Below are positions 13,978 to 21,575 of a stretch of DNA of 64,000 nucleotides, one piece after another (position 1 is the first letter of the stretch; each line of letters opens with the position of its first letter). The notes under the pieces are model-generated. The model saw only the letters and a list, made by a program, of their open reading frames with translations, was not told the origin of the DNA and searched no databases. The position numbers were made by a program, and so were the translations under genes. The stretch spans positions 4,476,296 to 4,540,295 of the forward strand of contig NZ_KI421517.1 in assembly GCF_000473365.1 (NCBI RefSeq), written 5' to 3'. The DNA is from Adhaeribacter aquaticus DSM 16391. GTDB taxonomy: Bacteria > Bacteroidota > Bacteroidia > Cytophagales > Hymenobacteraceae.

Positions 13978-15540
13978 ATGGCTGAAAAAAATAGAGAAAC
14001 TGAACATAAATTAACCCTCCGCCAATTACGCTTATCCGATTATAAGGCTATAAAAGCTATCATGGATAAAGTGTATTCGAACTTGGGTGGTTCCTGGACT
14101 AAAAACGAGTTTGCTAATTTACTAGGAGCTTTTCCCGAAGGACAAATATGTATTACAGATAAAGGTAAAGTAGTTGCCGGCGCATTAAGTATAATTGTAA
14201 AATACTCCGATTATGGAGATAATCATACCTATGAAGAAATTGTAGGTAAAGGTGAATTTAATACGCATAACCCGGATGGCGATACGTTGTATGGCGTGGA
14301 TGTTTTTGTTCATCCTGACTACCGGAACCTACGCCTAGGCCGGCGTTTATATGATGCCCGTAAAGAAATGTGCGAAAACCTGAATTTAAGAGCCATTATT
14401 GCGGGCGGAAGAATTCCAGGTTACCAGGAGCATTCGGAAAAAATGTCGCCAAAAAAGTACATCCAGATGGTGCGCAACAAAGAAATTTATGATCCCATCC
14501 TAACCTTCCAGCTGAGTAATGAATTTCACGTTCGGAAAATACTGAAAAGTTACATGCCGAGCGATTTAGAATCGAAGGCCTATGCCACTTTGCTGGAATG
14601 GATTAATGTGTATTATGAACCGCGGGAGGAAATTATTGGCGGGCAGAAAAAAGTAGTTCGGATTGGTATTGTGCAATGGCAAATGCGTAGCTTAAAATCA
14701 ATTGATGATTTGCTGCAGCAGATTGAATTTTATGTTGACACGGTAAGTAGCTACAAAGCCGACATTGTTATGTTTCCGGAGTTTTTTAATGCTCCGCTTA
14801 TGGCTCTTTCCAATGACCCCTCTCCTTCTGCAGCTATTCGTACGTTAGCAGATTATACCACAGAGGTTCGGGAAGCCATGATTCATATGGCTTTGTCTTA
14901 TAACATAAATATTATTGCCGGCAGCATGCCGGAGTATAACAACAAGCAATTACATAATGTAAGTTATTTATGCCGCCGGGATGGCACTTACGATAAGCAA
15001 TATAAACTACACGTTACCCCGGACGAAGCACATTACTGGGGTTTACGGGGAGGCCATAAATTACAGGCTTTCGATACGGATATAGGGAAAATTGGTATTC
15101 TGATTTGTTATGATGTCGAGTTCCCGGAATTAGCGCGGATGCTCTCAGACGAGGAAATGAAAATTTTATTTGTCCCTTACTGGACAGATACCAAAAATGC
15201 TTATTTACGGGTACGCCGTTGTGCACAAGCCAGGGCAATCGAAAATGAATGTTATGTGGCCATAACCGGTAGCGTAGGCAACTTGCCAAGGGTGGAGAAT
15301 ATGGATATTCAATACTCGCAATCGGCTGTTTTTTCACCGTCTGATTTTGCCTTTCCTCATGATGCCGTGGTAGCGGAAGCTACTCCCAATACCGAGATGA
15401 CTTTAATTGCGGACTTAGACTTAGACTTACTTAAAGATTTAAATTCTACTGGTAGTGTAAGAAACCTGCGCGACCGCCGGAAAGATCTATACAGCCTAAG
15501 CTGGGTATTGAAGAAAGAAATTACAGATACAGTGTTTTAA
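13978..15540 (+). CDS. GNAT acetyltransferase-carbon-nitrogen hydrolase fusion
   Basis: A 520-residue fusion. Residues about 10-215 form a GNAT N-acetyltransferase domain (VDVFVHPDYRNLRLGRRLYD is the acetyl-CoA loop). Residues about 226-515 form a nitrilase-superfamily amidohydrolase with the complete Glu-Lys-Cys triad: Glu268 in MFPEFFNAP, Lys343 in DKQYKLHVTPDE, Cys377 in GILICYDVEFPE. Such fusions are known as a conserved family of unassigned substrate; acyl transfer plus amide hydrolysis on one small metabolite is inferred. It stands alone with its own terminator. Confidence 0.92.
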   Translation: MAEKNRETEHKLTLRQLRLSDYKAIKAIMDKVYSNLGGSWTKNEFANLLGAFPEGQICITDKGKVVAGALSIIVKYSDYGDNHTYEEIVGKGEFNTHNPDGDTLYGVDVFVHPDYRNLRLGRRLYDARKEMCENLNLRAIIAGGRIPGYQEHSEKMSPKKYIQMVRNKEIYDPILTFQLSNEFHVRKILKSYMPSDLESKAYATLLEWINVYYEPREEIIGGQKKVVRIGIVQWQMRSLKSIDDLLQQIEFYVDTVSSYKADIVMFPEFFNAPLMALSNDPSPSAAIRTLADYTTEVREAMIHMALSYNINIIAGSMPEYNNKQLHNVSYLCRRDGTYDKQYKLHVTPDEAHYWGLRGGHKLQAFDTDIGKIGILICYDVEFPELARMLSDEEMKILFVPYWTDTKNAYLRVRRCAQARAIENECYVAITGSVGNLPRVENMDIQYSQSAVFSPSDFAFPHDAVVAEATPNTEMTLIADLDLDLLKDLNSTGSVRNLRDRRKDLYSLSWVLKKEITDTVF

Positions 15541-15546
15541 CCTTAA

Positions 15547-15595
15547 TTATAAATAAAAAAGGCTCCTGAATTGCAGGAGCCTTTTTTATTTATAA
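15547..15595 (+). terminator. Rho-independent terminator after the GNAT/nitrilase gene
   Basis: Hairpin with the GC core GGCTCCTG/CAGGAGCC, a 5-base loop, and A-run/T-run flanks that extend pairing to about 22 base pairs. It starts 7 bases past the stop codon. Confidence 0.92.
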
Positions 15596-15692
15596 GCACC
15601 AAAAATACTTTTCGCAAACCTATTTATATACTACCAAATATTCTAAAGTTTAAATTCTGCCTACTATTTACAAAACACTAAAATCAAATAAC

Positions 15693-15700
15693 TAAATTTG
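15693..15700 (+). promoter_or_regulatory. Candidate -7 box of hisS
   Basis: TAAATTTG matches TAnnTTTG and sits 20 bases before ATG 15720. The GTG at 15702 is only two bases past the box, so it cannot be the start if this promoter is used. Confidence 0.5.
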
Positions 15701-15719
15701 CGTGCTATTATTAGAGAGC

Positions 15720-17093
15720 ATGAGCAAAGAGAAACCTTCTATTCCGAAAGGAACCCGTGATTTTGGTCCGCAAGTAGTTGTAAAGCGGAATTATATATTT
15801 TCTACAATTCGTAAGACATTCGAGAAGTTTGGTTACCAGCCATTAGAAACACCAGCCATGGAAAATTTATCAGTACTTACTGGTAAATATGGCGAGGAAG
15901 GCGATCAACTTATCTTTAAAATATTAAATTCTGGCGACTATTTAACTAAAACTACGGCAACCGACTACGAAGCCGGTAGCAAAAACCTGTTGCGCAAGAT
16001 TTCAGAAAAAGCTTTACGCTATGATTTAACGGTACCCTTTGCCCGCTTTGTGGTAATGAACCGGAACGAAATCAGTTTCCCGTTTAAGCGGTACCAAATT
16101 CAGCCGGTATGGCGGGCTGACCGGCCACAACGGGGCCGTTACCGGGAATTTTACCAATGCGATGCCGACGTAGTGGGCACCAGATCCTTGCTTTGTGAGG
16201 CAGAGATTGTGCTGATGATGGATGAAGTACTTAGTAATTTAGGTATAACCGATTTTACTATTAAAATAAACCACCGTGGCATTTTAGCAGGTATTGCCGA
16301 AGCTATTGGCCAAAAGGGACGGGAGGCTGAAATTTGTGTAGCCATTGATAAACTCGATAAAATTGGACTGGAAGGCGTACAAAAAGAACTTCTTGAAAGA
16401 GGCATTACAGCAGAATCCATCTCGGCATTAGAACCAATTTTAAATATTGCCGGCGATAATACCTCTATCTTAAACGCACTAACTGAAATTTTAAAAGATT
16501 CGGAAGAAGGGCAGCGTGGTTTAAGCCAAATACAGGAGGTATTTGCCTACCTGAAGAACTTCCAAATTAAAAATGCCAATGTTTCGCTGGACATTGCCTT
16601 AGCACGCGGACTCTCCTACTACACCGGTTGCATATTTGAGGTTAAAGTTAATAATGCCAATATGGGCAGTATTAGCGGTGGCGGCCGGTACGATAACTTA
16701 ACCGGTATGTTTGGTTTGCCCGATGTATCTGGTGTTGGTTTTTCTTTTGGTGTAGACCGTATTTACGATGTAATGGAAGAACTAAATCTATTCCCGGCTT
16801 CCGGCCAAACCATTACCAAACTGCTCATAATAAATTTTGATAAAGCTTCTGAACAATACTCGTTGCCGTTGTTGCAGCAATTCCGGCAAGGTAATATTGC
16901 CACAGAACTTTACCCGGAAGCGGCCAAGCTTAAAAAGCAAATGACTTATGCTGATCAGAAGAAAATACCTTTTGTATTATTGGTTGGTTCTGAAGAAATG
17001 CAAACCGGGATTTTACAATTAAAGAATATGCAAACCGGTGAACAACAAGCTTTAAGGGCTGAAGAAATTATATCCATCCTGCAACAGCAATAA
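15720..17093 (+). CDS. hisS: Histidine--tRNA ligase HisS
   Basis: Charges tRNA-His. The class II synthetase is 457 residues from ATG 15720 and begins SKEKPSIPKGTRDFGP. Motif 2 is in FKRYQIQPVWRADRPQRGRYREF; the histidine-specific signatures ARGLSYYTGCIFEV and GGGRYDNL are intact, and the C-terminal anticodon-binding domain follows (about 365-457). A GTG at 15702 would add six residues but is less likely given the upstream -7 box. The stop is two bases before the next gene, so the three following genes probably form one transcript. Confidence 0.97.
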   Translation: MSKEKPSIPKGTRDFGPQVVVKRNYIFSTIRKTFEKFGYQPLETPAMENLSVLTGKYGEEGDQLIFKILNSGDYLTKTTATDYEAGSKNLLRKISEKALRYDLTVPFARFVVMNRNEISFPFKRYQIQPVWRADRPQRGRYREFYQCDADVVGTRSLLCEAEIVLMMDEVLSNLGITDFTIKINHRGILAGIAEAIGQKGREAEICVAIDKLDKIGLEGVQKELLERGITAESISALEPILNIAGDNTSILNALTEILKDSEEGQRGLSQIQEVFAYLKNFQIKNANVSLDIALARGLSYYTGCIFEVKVNNANMGSISGGGRYDNLTGMFGLPDVSGVGFSFGVDRIYDVMEELNLFPASGQTITKLLIINFDKASEQYSLPLLQQFRQGNIATELYPEAAKLKKQMTYADQKKIPFVLLVGSEEMQTGILQLKNMQTGEQQALRAEEIISILQQQ

Positions 17094-17095
17094 CT

Positions 17096-18229
17096 ATGGC
17101 TTTAGCTATTACCAATAGGCAGCTTACCTTGGCCAATCTGACCAGTGTTGTGAAGGAAAAACCTTTACTGGAATTAGACGCTGATTCGTTAACCAGGAAA
17201 CAAGAAGAACCGCAAGCAGACAAGCAAGTACAGACGGCAGTTGCCGAAGCCTACCTGGAGGCTCATGTAATAGGTTTTGAGGCGGAGTTGCCAGAAGATA
17301 TCATCCGATTAGCTTTAACTCTGCAGATTTACCTGCTTGGTAAAACGCCTGATTCGCCGGTACCTGATTCCATATTAAACCGGCTGTTGGCTTTTTATAA
17401 CCGGGAGGTATTTCCTATAGTTTTGAAACCTGCCCCGGAAGCAAGCCTTTTAGCACAATTGGCAGCGCCTTTATTGGGCAAAGGGAAAGTGCGTTTCCAG
17501 AGTTATGAATTGAACGCAGCAGATGTACTGGAAATGTTCAGTTGGGATCCGTTACCTTTATCGCCAGCAGAAGTTCAAATGTTTGTCCGGACAAAAAGTT
17601 TTAGGTTTACTTTCCTGGCCCATTCGCTTATTCAATTAAAACCATATCTAAATTGGTATACCTATCTATCAAAGGTATTTGAGCAAATTGCCTCACCAGT
17701 GGAAGGTAAAAATAAAGGAGCCTCGGAACTGACTACTGCTTTTGAGGCACTACAAGAAGCCGTAGAGGCTGAATTAGCAGCTCCGGATCAAAGTAAAAAT
17801 TTAGAAAGCCTTCTCAACCATTTTTTGGTTACGCTTTCAGAATCTGTTAATTTAATAGCTTCTTACACAGCAGAAACGTTTACTAATTTAATGGCTACTT
17901 CGGAGCCTCCTGCCCTTAGCAGCTTTTCTTTAGCGCATGAATTAACAATATTCCTGCAACAACAAGTTACCAGCATTAGCTTAACCCAGCAGAACATGCC
18001 GGTACTAAATGAACAATTTAACATCTTAGTTAAGCTAACCGAACAAGTTATGGCGTTAGGCTTCTGGTCTGTAACGCAGGTAGGAAAAGTATTTAATTTA
18101 GCCGAAGGAAATTTAACCTTAGGTACATATTATCATTCCAGTTTATACGTTCCTAAAGAAACAGTAAAAGACCAATTGGTAAAAGTCCAAACGTTTATTA
18201 CAAATACAACTCCTATTGCATTAACTTGA
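17096..18229 (+). CDS. Aromatic amino acid (histidine ammonia) lyase-like protein lacking the catalytic MIO motif
   Basis: A 377-residue soluble protein. Its first part follows the HAL/PAL pattern: ITNRQLTLANL and LELDADSLTR at the N-terminus, YLEAHVIGFEAELPEDIIR like the LLxSHAxGxGxPLPxxxxR segment, then an RLLAFYNREVFPIVLKP block and an LLGKGKVRFQ strand-like block. In true lyases the Ala-Ser-Gly in a GxVGASGDLAPLAH loop cyclises to the MIO cofactor. Here the loop reads PAPEASLLAQLAAPLLG (Glu115, Ala116, Ser117, Leu118), with Gly-Asp replaced by one Leu, so MIO should not form. The protein is also short (family about 500). I read it as a probable pseudoenzyme, remote homology only, function unknown. 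It follows hisS by two bases and overlaps the next gene by four. Confidence 0.65.
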   Translation: MALAITNRQLTLANLTSVVKEKPLLELDADSLTRKQEEPQADKQVQTAVAEAYLEAHVIGFEAELPEDIIRLALTLQIYLLGKTPDSPVPDSILNRLLAFYNREVFPIVLKPAPEASLLAQLAAPLLGKGKVRFQSYELNAADVLEMFSWDPLPLSPAEVQMFVRTKSFRFTFLAHSLIQLKPYLNWYTYLSKVFEQIASPVEGKNKGASELTTAFEALQEAVEAELAAPDQSKNLESLLNHFLVTLSESVNLIASYTAETFTNLMATSEPPALSSFSLAHELTIFLQQQVTSISLTQQNMPVLNEQFNILVKLTEQVMALGFWSVTQVGKVFNLAEGNLTLGTYYHSSLYVPKETVKDQLVKVQTFITNTTPIALT

Positions 18230-20127
18230 GAAGATTAGCCTTATTCTTTTTATTTCAGGTTTGGATCTGCCAATTTGCAATAGCCCAATCATGCCCAAAT
18301 GGTTTTCGCTTCTTTAACAGTTTAGGTCAGGAAACCACGGTTATTTGTGTGGGAGAAAAACTTCGGGCGAAATCTTGCTTGCCCAACAGTCAGCCGGATA
18401 AAGAATATTATGATTTTGAAGCCAAAAATGGTCTCCAATTCTCAACCGATACAACTAAAAATGTAACCTATAATACTCCTGGCACCTATACGGTAACGCA
18501 ACTGGTAAATTTAGGAGCAGAAGGCATAAAACAGCATGAACGTACTATTACTGTTATAGCCTTACAGGAACCGGAATACACCGTTAGTGCCTGTGCCAAT
18601 GGCTTGGTTCTGGTTAAAATTACGGATACAAAGCTTAATCAATTTTCTGTAAATTTTAATGATAATACGCGGGTACAAGTAGTGGGCCAAGGAGCATTCA
18701 TTAACCACCAATATGCGCCGGGCACTAGCAGTAAAATTACAGTAACCGGTAAATTTACCGGAGCCACCTGTGAAATATCTAAGGAAACCAGGGTTCAGGC
18801 TTTACCAACAGCCCCTACTCCTTCCTTGCAACAAGTCCAAATTACTAATTTAAATACTTCTGGCAGCGTTGCTATTACTTTTGGCAATTTACAGGCAGAA
18901 TATTATTATATTGTTGAAAAACAAAGCAATAATAATTTCATCCCGATTGATACAGTAAAAAATCCCACTTCAGGAGTTGTTACCAGAACTATCCAAGACC
19001 TGAATACCCAGAACTCCTCCAGCTTTAGAATTCGGGTTACAGATGTATGTAATTCTGCTTTACCTGCTTCCAACAGTATTAGCAGTTTGCCACTAACGGT
19101 TGTAGCCGGAAATAACAAAATAAAACTAAGTTGGTCGTCGGTTCCCAATGCCTCGGGGTACGTGCTTAAACGAAATGGAACCGACTACCAAACTGCTATT
19201 CATCCTGACTCAATTACTTTTATTGATAGAAATGTTACCTGCGGTACAAATTACCGCTATCAACTAATAGCCAGGTTAGGCAGTAATACTTCTACTTCCA
19301 ACGAAGTAACTATTACTGCCAATTCCACTCAAAAACCTGCCGGAGGTTTTTTAATAAGTACCTTCACCCCCAATAATCAGGTACAATTAACGGTGATACC
19401 TCCTACTTCCGAAAGCCCGAAGTCTTATTCCTTTCAAAAAAGTGCGGGCAGCAATACTTTCGTTAGTTTGGCTACCGGCGAACAAAATATTACGATAGAT
19501 AATAAAGTAACTTTAACCGGACCTACACCTTGCTACCAGGCATTTTTTACTAATAACTGTGGGCAAGCCTCAGAATTAACCAATATTACCTGCCCAATTT
19601 TCCTGACGGGCACTTTCACCTTAGGTAATATAGAACTATCCTGGACGCCATTTCAGGGGTTCCCAAACGGTATTCAGCAATATCTGGTTGAACAGGTAGA
19701 TGCTTCAGGCCAGGTAACCACCAGCAGTGTTGCGAGCGGCAATACTTTTACAACCACAAACAACACAGAACAACAAGTAAATTTTAGAATTAAGGCGGTT
19801 GGTAATCATGCAAATGAGATAAGCTATTCCAATACCCTAAACTTAAAAAGAGAGACTCAGCTACTGATACCTACCGCCTTTACTCCTAATGGCGATGGTC
19901 TCAATGATAAGTTTGAGGTAAAAGGACAGTTTATCAGATCTTTCAAAATGGTGATCTATAACCGGTGGGGCGAAGGGATATTTGAAAGCACCAATCAAAA
20001 CCATTCCTGGGATGGAAGGATTAATGGCAAGGAAGCGACTCCCGGTGTTTATTCGTATGCTTTAAACGCTACAGATGATAACGGCAAAATATACAATAAA
20101 ACAGGTACCATTACCTTATTACGATAA
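18226..20127 (+). CDS. T9SS type B secreted protein with PKD/fibronectin-like repeats and gliding-motility-type C-terminal domain
   Basis: 633 residues. A signal peptide (about 1-20, ending IAQS) is followed by a PKD-like domain (about 25-120), fibronectin type III-like modules (about 200-530), and a C-terminal gliding motility-associated domain beginning IPTAFTPNGDGLNDKFEV (about 545) with YNRWGEGIFES and SWDG. That domain directs export by the type IX secretion system and attachment to the cell surface or release. It starts at TTG 18226, which overlaps the stop of the preceding gene (TTGA). The binding target is unknown. The position downstream of hisS appears to reflect shared transcription only. 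Confidence 0.9.
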   Translation: MRRLALFFLFQVWICQFAIAQSCPNGFRFFNSLGQETTVICVGEKLRAKSCLPNSQPDKEYYDFEAKNGLQFSTDTTKNVTYNTPGTYTVTQLVNLGAEGIKQHERTITVIALQEPEYTVSACANGLVLVKITDTKLNQFSVNFNDNTRVQVVGQGAFINHQYAPGTSSKITVTGKFTGATCEISKETRVQALPTAPTPSLQQVQITNLNTSGSVAITFGNLQAEYYYIVEKQSNNNFIPIDTVKNPTSGVVTRTIQDLNTQNSSSFRIRVTDVCNSALPASNSISSLPLTVVAGNNKIKLSWSSVPNASGYVLKRNGTDYQTAIHPDSITFIDRNVTCGTNYRYQLIARLGSNTSTSNEVTITANSTQKPAGGFLISTFTPNNQVQLTVIPPTSESPKSYSFQKSAGSNTFVSLATGEQNITIDNKVTLTGPTPCYQAFFTNNCGQASELTNITCPIFLTGTFTLGNIELSWTPFQGFPNGIQQYLVEQVDASGQVTTSSVASGNTFTTTNNTEQQVNFRIKAVGNHANEISYSNTLNLKRETQLLIPTAFTPNGDGLNDKFEVKGQFIRSFKMVIYNRWGEGIFESTNQNHSWDGRINGKEATPGVYSYALNATDDNGKIYNKTGTITLLR

Positions 20128-20164
20128 GCGGATAAATCTATTTTTACGTTTAGCTAAAACAGCG

Positions 20165-20172
20165 TATTTTTG
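20165..20172 (+). promoter_or_regulatory. Candidate -7 box of ybaB
   Basis: TATTTTTG matches TAnnTTTG and lies 25 bases upstream of the ybaB ATG. A -33 element is not obvious. Confidence 0.45.
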
Positions 20173-20197
20173 AGTTTAAATAAAAGAAAGGAAATTT

Positions 20198-20533
20198 ATG
20201 TTTGATATGTTTAATATGATGAACAAGCTGAAAGAAGTACAGGGCAAAATGAAAGAGGCCCAGGACAGCTTGCAATTTATTACCGTAACTGCCGAATCGG
20301 GTGCCGGTTTGGTTAAAGCAAAAGTTAATGGTCTTAAACGAGTAATCAGCATTGACATAGATGAATCTTTATTAAATAAAGAGGATAAGGATATGGTTAC
20401 GGATTTGGTGGTAGCGGCCGTTAACAAAGCTATGGACGAAGCCAGTGAAAAGGCAAAAGATGAAATGAAACGGCAGACGGAAGGCTTAATTCCTAATATC
20501 CCTGGTTTTGATTTAGGTAATCTTGGTTTCTAA
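20198..20533 (+). CDS. YbaB/EbfC family nucleoid-associated protein
   Basis: Small DNA-binding dimer of the nucleoid, 111 residues. The family pattern is clear: MNKLKEVQGKMKEAQ coiled start, VTAESGAGLVKAKVNGLKRVISIDIDESLL core strands, then the DLVVAAVNKAMDEASEKAKDEM helix and a Gly/Pro-rich tail. It often sits by dnaX or recR, but not here. The last 11 bases overlap the next gene, a glycosyltransferase. Confidence 0.95.
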   Translation: MFDMFNMMNKLKEVQGKMKEAQDSLQFITVTAESGAGLVKAKVNGLKRVISIDIDESLLNKEDKDMVTDLVVAAVNKAMDEASEKAKDEMKRQTEGLIPNIPGFDLGNLGF

Positions 20534-21575
20534 TCACTTTCCAAACGTAGCAATAGTAATCTTAAATTGGAATGGCCGGAAATTTCTGGAACAATTCCTG
20601 CCTGGTGTTTTGGCTCAGTCAGCTGGCGCCCAGGTAATTGTGGCTGATAATGCCTCTACTGATGATTCTGTTTCTTTTTTAGAAAATTACTTTCCAGAAG
20701 TAAAACTAATCCATCATAAACAAAACCTGGGGTTCTGCGAGGGCTACAATACGGCCCTAAAACTAGTGGAGGCAGAATTCTATGTCTTGTTGAACTCAGA
20801 TGTTGAGGTAACTCCCAATTGGATAGCCCCTATTCTACAATTATTGTCCGGTGATGTATCTATTGCCGCTTGCCAGCCTAAAATTAAATCTTTTTTTGAC
20901 CGGGCGTATTTTGAATATGCCGGAGCCGGTGGCGGTTTAATAGATTTCTTGGGTTACCCTTTTTGCCGGGGACGTGTATTTGAAACCCTGGAAAAAGATA
21001 ACGGGCAATATAATGATATACAACCCGTATTTTGGGCTACCGGGGCCTGTATGTTTGTTAGAGCAAAAGCTTTTTGGGAACTAGGTGGCTTGGAGCCAGC
21101 CTTTTTTGCCCACATGGAAGAAATTGATTTGTGCTGGCGCTTACAAAATGCCGGTTATAAAGTTATGTACTGCGGGCATAGCGAAATTTATCATGTTGGC
21201 GGTGGCACTCTCCATAAATCTAACTCCCGGAAAACTTACCTAAATTTCAGAAACGGGTTGGCTTTATTTTACAAGAATAGTTCTGATCCAAACCTGTACT
21301 TCCTGCTGTTAATCCGCATCATATTAGATTGGATTGCAGCCTTGAAGTTTACCAGTGAGGGCCAGTGGCGCGATGGATTAGCCGTTTTCAAAGCACACTG
21401 GCATTTAGTAAAAAATAGAAAGTATTGGTACAAGCAAAGGCAATTAAGTCCTAAAACCAGTAATCAGCCGGCACAAATAATTTATAATAAAAGTGTGGTC
21501 TGGCAATATTTTATAAAAGGAAAACGCTTTTATAAAAGTTTAGAAGTCCCAGATAGTGCTACGCTGCCTTCTTAA
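20523..21575 (+). CDS. Family 2 glycosyltransferase (rhamnosyltransferase-like)
   Basis: Transfers a sugar from an activated nucleotide donor to a glycan acceptor. The 350-residue GT-A protein opens VAIVILNWNGRKFLEQFLPG, has the LLNSDVEVTP metal-binding region (a DxD-type motif), and the ATGACMFVRAKAFWELGG and EEIDLCWRLQNAGYKV acceptor-side motifs that mark the WbbL/dTDP-Rha transferase-like branch. No membrane segment is convincing. It starts at TTG 20523, inside the end of ybaB. Donor and acceptor are not determined; it lies outside the main polysaccharide loci. Confidence 0.9.
   Translation: MVSNHFPNVAIVILNWNGRKFLEQFLPGVLAQSAGAQVIVADNASTDDSVSFLENYFPEVKLIHHKQNLGFCEGYNTALKLVEAEFYVLLNSDVEVTPNWIAPILQLLSGDVSIAACQPKIKSFFDRAYFEYAGAGGGLIDFLGYPFCRGRVFETLEKDNGQYNDIQPVFWATGACMFVRAKAFWELGGLEPAFFAHMEEIDLCWRLQNAGYKVMYCGHSEIYHVGGGTLHKSNSRKTYLNFRNGLALFYKNSSDPNLYFLLLIRIILDWIAALKFTSEGQWRDGLAVFKAHWHLVKNRKYWYKQRQLSPKTSNQPAQIIYNKSVVWQYFIKGKRFYKSLEVPDSATLPS

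Follow-up and report, generated by a model that had tools for sequence, protein, structure and literature searches.

Pseudoenzymes are mostly investigated one case at a time. Delta-crystallin, for example, is an inactive argininosuccinate lyase that arose through gene sharing and then duplication, and HisZ is an inactive paralogue of histidyl-tRNA synthetase (HisRS) that regulates HisG. Here, we describe a gene from a 64,000-nucleotide stretch of the Adhaeribacter aquaticus DSM 16391 genome (hereafter, the window) whose product, the window protein, is homologous to histidine ammonia-lyase (HAL, the product of hutH) and has lost the residues that form the cofactor of that enzyme, 4-methylideneimidazole-5-one (MIO). 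We argue that this protein is probably a HAL pseudoenzyme under selection for a role independent of MIO. The evidence that carries this reading is its homology to HAL, the loss of MIO and of most of the substrate site, the absence of hutU, the reading frame that stays open in all but one of the 33 MIO-less copies read, purifying selection among its relatives, and a constant location immediately before a gene encoding a CHU_C domain.

With HutH (PF00221/TIGR01225), the window protein shares fold, order of segments, gene neighborhood, and descent; it differs in that the MIO tripeptide is absent, the inner-loop tyrosine and other substrate residues are lost, the chain is about 120 residues shorter, and the genome has no hut pathway. 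The likeness to delta-crystallin lies in a lyase kept for a noncatalytic job, and the fold of the latter is related to that of HAL (fumarase C appeared lower in our structure search); here, however, there is one copy per genome of the genus, converted in place, and this happened several times in one family. HisZ exemplifies a pseudoenzyme that is related to histidine and acts on a regulatory partner; its fold, however, is unrelated, and the HAL-like gene has only candidate partners. Ergothionase from Treponema denticola (6s7j) differs in being full length (497 residues) and an enzyme, and its sequence scores 178 bits with intact HAL compared to 19 bits with a profile of the eight Adhaeribacter proteins (the genus profile). 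In the titles and abstract openings of the openly licensed literature, we found nothing that describes a MIO-less HAL like this one.

Descent from histidine ammonia-lyase

The gene and the parts of it discussed below are as follows.

17096 to 18229, + strand: gene of the HAL-derived protein without MIO (open reading frame, 377 amino acids), the sole PF00221 match in the genome
17222 to 17665, + strand: match to the Lyase_aromatic profile, residues 43 to 190, the retained scaffold (Pfam profile and alignment conservation)
17438 to 17443, + strand: codons 115 and 116 (Glu-Ala), the junction at which the MIO loop lacks the Gly-Ala-Ser-Gly-Asp of intact HAL (alignment)
17486 to 17545, + strand: residues 131 to 150 (KVRFQSYELNAADVLEMFSW), the densest run of invariant residues in the eight genus proteins (conservation)

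A sequence-only reading of the window had assigned this frame, by eye, to the HAL/phenylalanine ammonia-lyase (PAL) fold and had called the homology remote. The assignment is borne out by the Pfam profile Lyase_aromatic (PF00221), which matches the window protein with 48.4 bits (E 7.4e-13) against a gathering score of 27.3, and by the predicted structure, which has the HAL/PAL fold. The hutH model TIGR01225 gives a partial match (E 6e-9) whose 34.9 bits lie far below the equivalog cut-off of 539.15. HAL from Pseudomonas putida (1b8f) is matched with E 3.4e-8 by the window protein and with E 1.1e-10 by the genus profile. A Pfam match to DYH2-5-8_CC in a helical region fell below its cut-off and was disregarded.

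"Remote," in turn, proved to be the wrong word. In most related genera, the slot hisS-HAL-CHU_C-ybaB-glycosyltransferase holds a HAL of about 500 amino acids with the motif, and the simplest reading of the window protein is therefore an orthologue of HAL that was converted in this gene slot, not an acquired paralogue. Intact HALs were also read in Rufibacter ruber and R. roseus. In agreement with this, each of the eight genomes of Adhaeribacter (Hymenobacteraceae in the NCBI taxonomy) has exactly one PF00221 match, always the MIO-less copy. When genome contigs were scanned, a query with a single protein returned no matches, and an alignment-based query returned five named loci.

Loss of the MIO loop and of the substrate site

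The earlier reading also took EASLLAQLAA to be the loop, with Gly-Asp lost. The absence of MIO stands, but the detail needs correction: in the smaller of two alignments, KPAPE-----ASLLAQLAAP of the window protein faces QQGSLGASGDLAPLAHLCLP, so that all five residues of Gly-Ala-Ser-Gly-Asp are deleted, and the "AS" of EASLLAQLAA falls after the deletion and is not the MIO Ala-Ser. The larger alignment places the gap slightly differently, with a proline at Gly144, and still leaves Ala142 and Ser143 as gaps. Since these two positions are gapped in both alignments, the whole tripeptide is lost, not Gly-Asp alone.

The damage extends to the remainder of the active site, whose catalytic and substrate residues we take to be, in the numbering of the P. 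putida HAL literature, Tyr53, His83, Asn195, Gln277, Tyr280, Arg283, Phe329, and Glu414. In the alignment of 94 family proteins, the window protein has gaps at Tyr53, Ala142, Ser143, Gln277, Tyr280, Arg283, Phe329, and Glu414 and substitutions at Gly144 and Asn195, leaving the equivalent of His83 as the sole checked residue that is retained. All 11 checked residues are present in 61 of 61 copies with Ala-Ser-Gly, and the MIO serine in 0 of 33 copies without it. Among the other seven genus proteins, none was found with Ala-Ser-Gly-Asp, and four proteins of the genus (L032 to L035) lack even the His83 equivalent. These losses support the earlier proposal of a pseudoenzyme but not its companion, a histidine-sensing role: with the substrate site gone, a sensor working through the old pocket is unlikely, and we rejected it as first choice.

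What the MIO-less copies do conserve includes the residues around the lost loop. Ten columns are invariant in 32 of these copies, and in each the invariant residue is the most frequent one in intact HAL, too. The conserved residues include a Q.Y.L run whose Gln and Tyr are invariant in the 32 copies compared to 77% and 72% in intact proteins, a difference that may reflect sampling.

Histidine-degradation pathway across the family

The eight Adhaeribacter genomes (G000 to G007) gave no match to hutU and only matches below the cut-off to hutI, and all eight carry a MIO-less copy. Across 60 family genomes, hutU was above the cut-off in 43 and hutI in the same 43, every one of which has a HAL with Ala-Ser-Gly. 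We then have, in a sample of 192 Hymenobacteraceae genomes, each at least 95% complete, a HAL homologue in 192 of 192 and hutU above the cut-off in 144. The other 48, obtained by subtracting the genomes with a hutU match from those of the HAL search and counting the weak remnants in G085, G092, and G104 as absences, comprise 31 genomes whose HAL lacks Ala-Ser-Gly and 17 whose HAL retains it; none has lost the gene. Loops were read in all 48 and in G007 (78% complete and outside the sample), as well as in 45 of the 144 hutU-positive genomes, the other 99 being judged by score alone; 44 of the 45 have Ala-Ser-Gly, the exception being G161. This brings the MIO-less copies to 33 (31 plus G007 and G161). 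In G161, the only such case among the 45, the copy before CHU_C is MIO-less, and a separate, distant HAL with Ala-Ser-Gly lies close to an atypical hutU on the same contig.

Outside the family, we compared 22 genomes of the same order, a set that is small and includes some small genomes. Eleven lack hutU; among these, PF00221 has no match in seven and a full-scoring one in four, judged by score and not by the MIO loop. No reduced form of HAL was seen. The contrast with these other members of the order points to a second role that is particular to Hymenobacteraceae.

Several further observations concern the pathway genes themselves: (i) a complete HAL active site without hutU above the cut-off occurs in 17 genomes, including G062, G074, G090, G133, G154, G163, G171, and G176, where urocanate would be the end product or catalysis would not yet be lost; (ii) in G030, G204, G161, G047, and G054, the only hutU above the cut-off is a divergent urocanase (407 to 430 bits compared to about 810 to 950 for full-length proteins elsewhere); (iii) in G085, G092, G104, G199, G142, G143, and G075, hutU is a weak match, split or with in-frame stops, while the HAL matches of these genomes are free of stops, as if the pathway were being lost now or the assembly were faulty; and (iv) G093, which has no hutU and a MIO-less copy linked to CHU_C, encodes a further PF00221-type protein on contig 2 (L129), which has Ala-Ser-Gly, is 36% identical to HAL, and may be a lyase acting on a different amino acid.

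Parallel conversions

The loop lesions differ among copies—GSLGAYGDQ, GSLGAGHDQ, GAGDQ, QQGGDQ, QQGTSAALAH, EQGTAETPLAH, and others—and lengths of about 350 to 400 amino acids (353 to 404 in many) recur in the genus and in other lineages. On a tree of hisS, many of whose branches are weakly supported, there are 10 or more switches of the MIO state and 11 of hutU; the tree was built from 82 family loci out of 94, as 12 with fewer than 250 hisS residues were dropped, nine of them MIO-less. The conversion of HAL to a MIO-less form took place several times within Hymenobacteraceae, a recurrence suggesting that the protein has a second, noncatalytic job. A single sequence could not reveal that the window protein belongs to a series of parallel conversions in genomes without the histidine-utilization pathway.

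Selection on the MIO-less copies

A ratio of nonsynonymous to synonymous substitution rates (dN/dS) was obtained for 23 of the 25 MIO-less pairs selected; it ranged from 0.10 to 0.58 and was 0.30 or less in 19, and three intact pairs gave 0.03 to 0.11. The pair G002/G001 (Adhaeribacter rhizoryzae/A. aerolatus) stands at 0.11 with dS of about 1.5, and other close pairs at 0.21, 0.12, 0.27, 0.27, and 0.20. For the block that flanks the lost loop, dN/dS is 0.05 to 0.23 in the seven pairs, out of nine, that allowed an estimate, and this block is the most constrained part of the protein in most pairs with estimates for both parts. The constraint on MIO-less copies is thus real but looser than in intact HAL.

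Several results weigh against a pseudoenzyme under selection and limit how firmly it can be held. For the window protein itself, dS was saturated in both pairs tried, and selection on it is therefore inferred from congeners. Over all pairs with dS of 0.2 to 1.2, the median dN/dS is 0.55 for MIO-less copies (119 pairs, mostly crossing lineages; maximum, 0.79) compared to 0.22 for intact ones (296 pairs). One MIO-less copy (G098) has a broken frame; the assembly of this genome consists of about 450 contigs. Many branches of the hisS tree are weak, and an independent-pairs test of hutU against MIO on the supported branches was underpowered (five pairs; median p 0.5). Moreover, 17 of the 48 hutU-less genomes keep Ala-Ser-Gly, and the two losses are therefore not one event. 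In the predicted structure, the last 51 residues (327 to 377) have a predicted local distance difference test score (pLDDT) below 50, and the alignment behind the model includes two intact HALs. Finally, the top row of the structure search was ergothionase, a MIO-less enzyme of HAL fold in the PDB that works without MIO; given this precedent, the absence of MIO alone is no proof of lost catalysis.

The faster evolution compared to intact HAL, the shorter proteins, and the frame-broken copy are what would be expected of a decaying relic, a functionless gene on its way out whose frame is open only because the decay is recent. We nevertheless consider a relic improbable: no family genome out of 192 misses the gene, all but one of the MIO-less frames are open, and amino acid changes are held down in the pairs described above, most of all at the flanks of the lost loop. 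Decay through stops does occur in these genomes, since hutU is riddled with stops in G085 and G092, yet the HAL frame there is open and has Ala-Ser-Gly.

The ergothionase precedent further raises the prospect of a new enzyme, the scaffold having been re-used for another reaction. Ergothionase itself was rejected as an identity on overall sequence score, the genus profile matching HAL (1b8f) with E 1.1e-10 and 6s7j with E 0.0053, and this greater nearness to HAL also speaks against a new enzyme, as do descent in place from HAL, the ten invariant columns with their ordinary HAL residues and no apparent new active-site set, and the lack of even the His83 equivalent in L032 to L035. Although a novel reaction thus has little probability in our estimate, the prospect of a new lyase of the ergothionase kind is the reason why we regard the HAL pseudoenzyme as probable and no more than that.

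Gene neighborhood and candidate partners

The neighbors of the HAL-like gene in the window are as follows.

15702 to 17093, + strand: hisS, encoding HisRS, two bases upstream (gap count; open reading frames)
18226 to 20127, + strand: downstream gene encoding a CHU_C domain of type IX secretion; counted from its earliest possible start, it shares 4 bases with the end of the HAL-like gene
20198 to 21575, + strand: ybaB-like gene and family 2 glycosyltransferase, the remainder of the conserved gene block (neighborhood comparison)

The two-base gap to hisS noted in the sequence-only reading is confirmed, with the hisS TAA ending at 17093 and the ATG of the HAL-like gene at 17096. The conservation of this linkage, by contrast, depends on the scale at which it is viewed: all eight genus genomes have a gap of -4 to 2 bp, but of the 94 family loci, 65 have hisS no more than 150 bp away; in another 21 the distance is greater, and in the remaining 8 no hisS was seen in the 1.3 to 1.9 kb examined upstream. 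In five loci, inspection of the intervals between hisS and the HAL-like gene as raw frames yielded no identification. A CHU_C gene is directly downstream in 94 of 94 loci, the downstream gene being recognized by its resemblance to the proteins encoded at this place in the window and its relatives, with Pfam run on that of the window. On gene order, hisS was therefore rejected as a constant partner in the family. A scan of positions 15400 to 20300 found 7 promoter-like sites compared to 11.0 expected and 0 terminator-like sites compared to 5.2 expected and was uninformative.

The constant CHU_C neighbor, together with the overlap of 4 bases that the window shares with three loci of close Adhaeribacter relatives (L052 to L054), could also mean that the frame is a coding spacer, kept for translational coupling to the overlapping CHU_C start or for an internal promoter, with the protein itself irrelevant. 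Many relatives, however, keep the frame despite a gap of tens to hundreds of bases before CHU_C, and selection acts on the amino acids, at particular positions; we therefore give a spacer little credence. Neither a relic nor a pure spacer accounts well for selection at the amino acid level combined with universal retention.

If the window protein is a pseudoenzyme with a binding role, gene order makes the CHU_C system the first candidate for its partner, although one of low probability, and HisRS, slightly less probable still, the second. The latter overlaps with a separate proposal, that of a regulator linked to histidine or HisRS, for which the tight gap to hisS in the window and genus and the proximity in about two-thirds of the family loci can be cited. 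We regard this regulator as unlikely, since the substrate-site residues are gone and the HAL-like gene is kept in the loci in which hisS is farther away or not seen.

Upstream of hisS, at positions 13978 to 15540, lies a gene for a GNAT acetyltransferase fused to a carbon-nitrogen hydrolase; it is 88 to 93% identical in the seven other genus loci and is the most conserved gene compared there.

A proposed history and its implications

The pseudoenzyme reading would imply an order of events in which the histidine-degradation pathway was lost first and catalysis afterwards. The protein would be cytoplasmic, consistent with an N terminus that, by eye, has no evident signal peptide, and would serve in binding or as a scaffold, built from the N-terminal and MIO-flanking module of HAL plus a helical bundle. 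We propose that the gene was not dropped once catalysis had become useless because this second role may already have been present in the intact enzyme, before MIO was lost. Extended to the family, the HAL before CHU_C would be a protein with two jobs, urocanate synthesis and an indispensable structural role independent of MIO; after loss of the pathway, catalysis would have been discarded and the scaffold trimmed in a similar way in several lineages (to about 350 to 400 residues), so that pseudoenzymes would have arisen at one locus repeatedly and in parallel. We judge this extended account to be about as apt to be right as wrong.

For annotation, the locus carries a warning: although genes at this position match the aromatic-lyase profile, the residues required to make urocanate are missing from 33 of the 94 that were read. 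For the study of pseudoenzymes, one locus in one family spans intact enzymes, full active sites without hutU, nearly full-length proteins with broken MIO loops, and trimmed forms. Given this graded series at one locus, whether a hidden second function precedes the loss of catalysis becomes a question that is directly testable in environmental bacteria.
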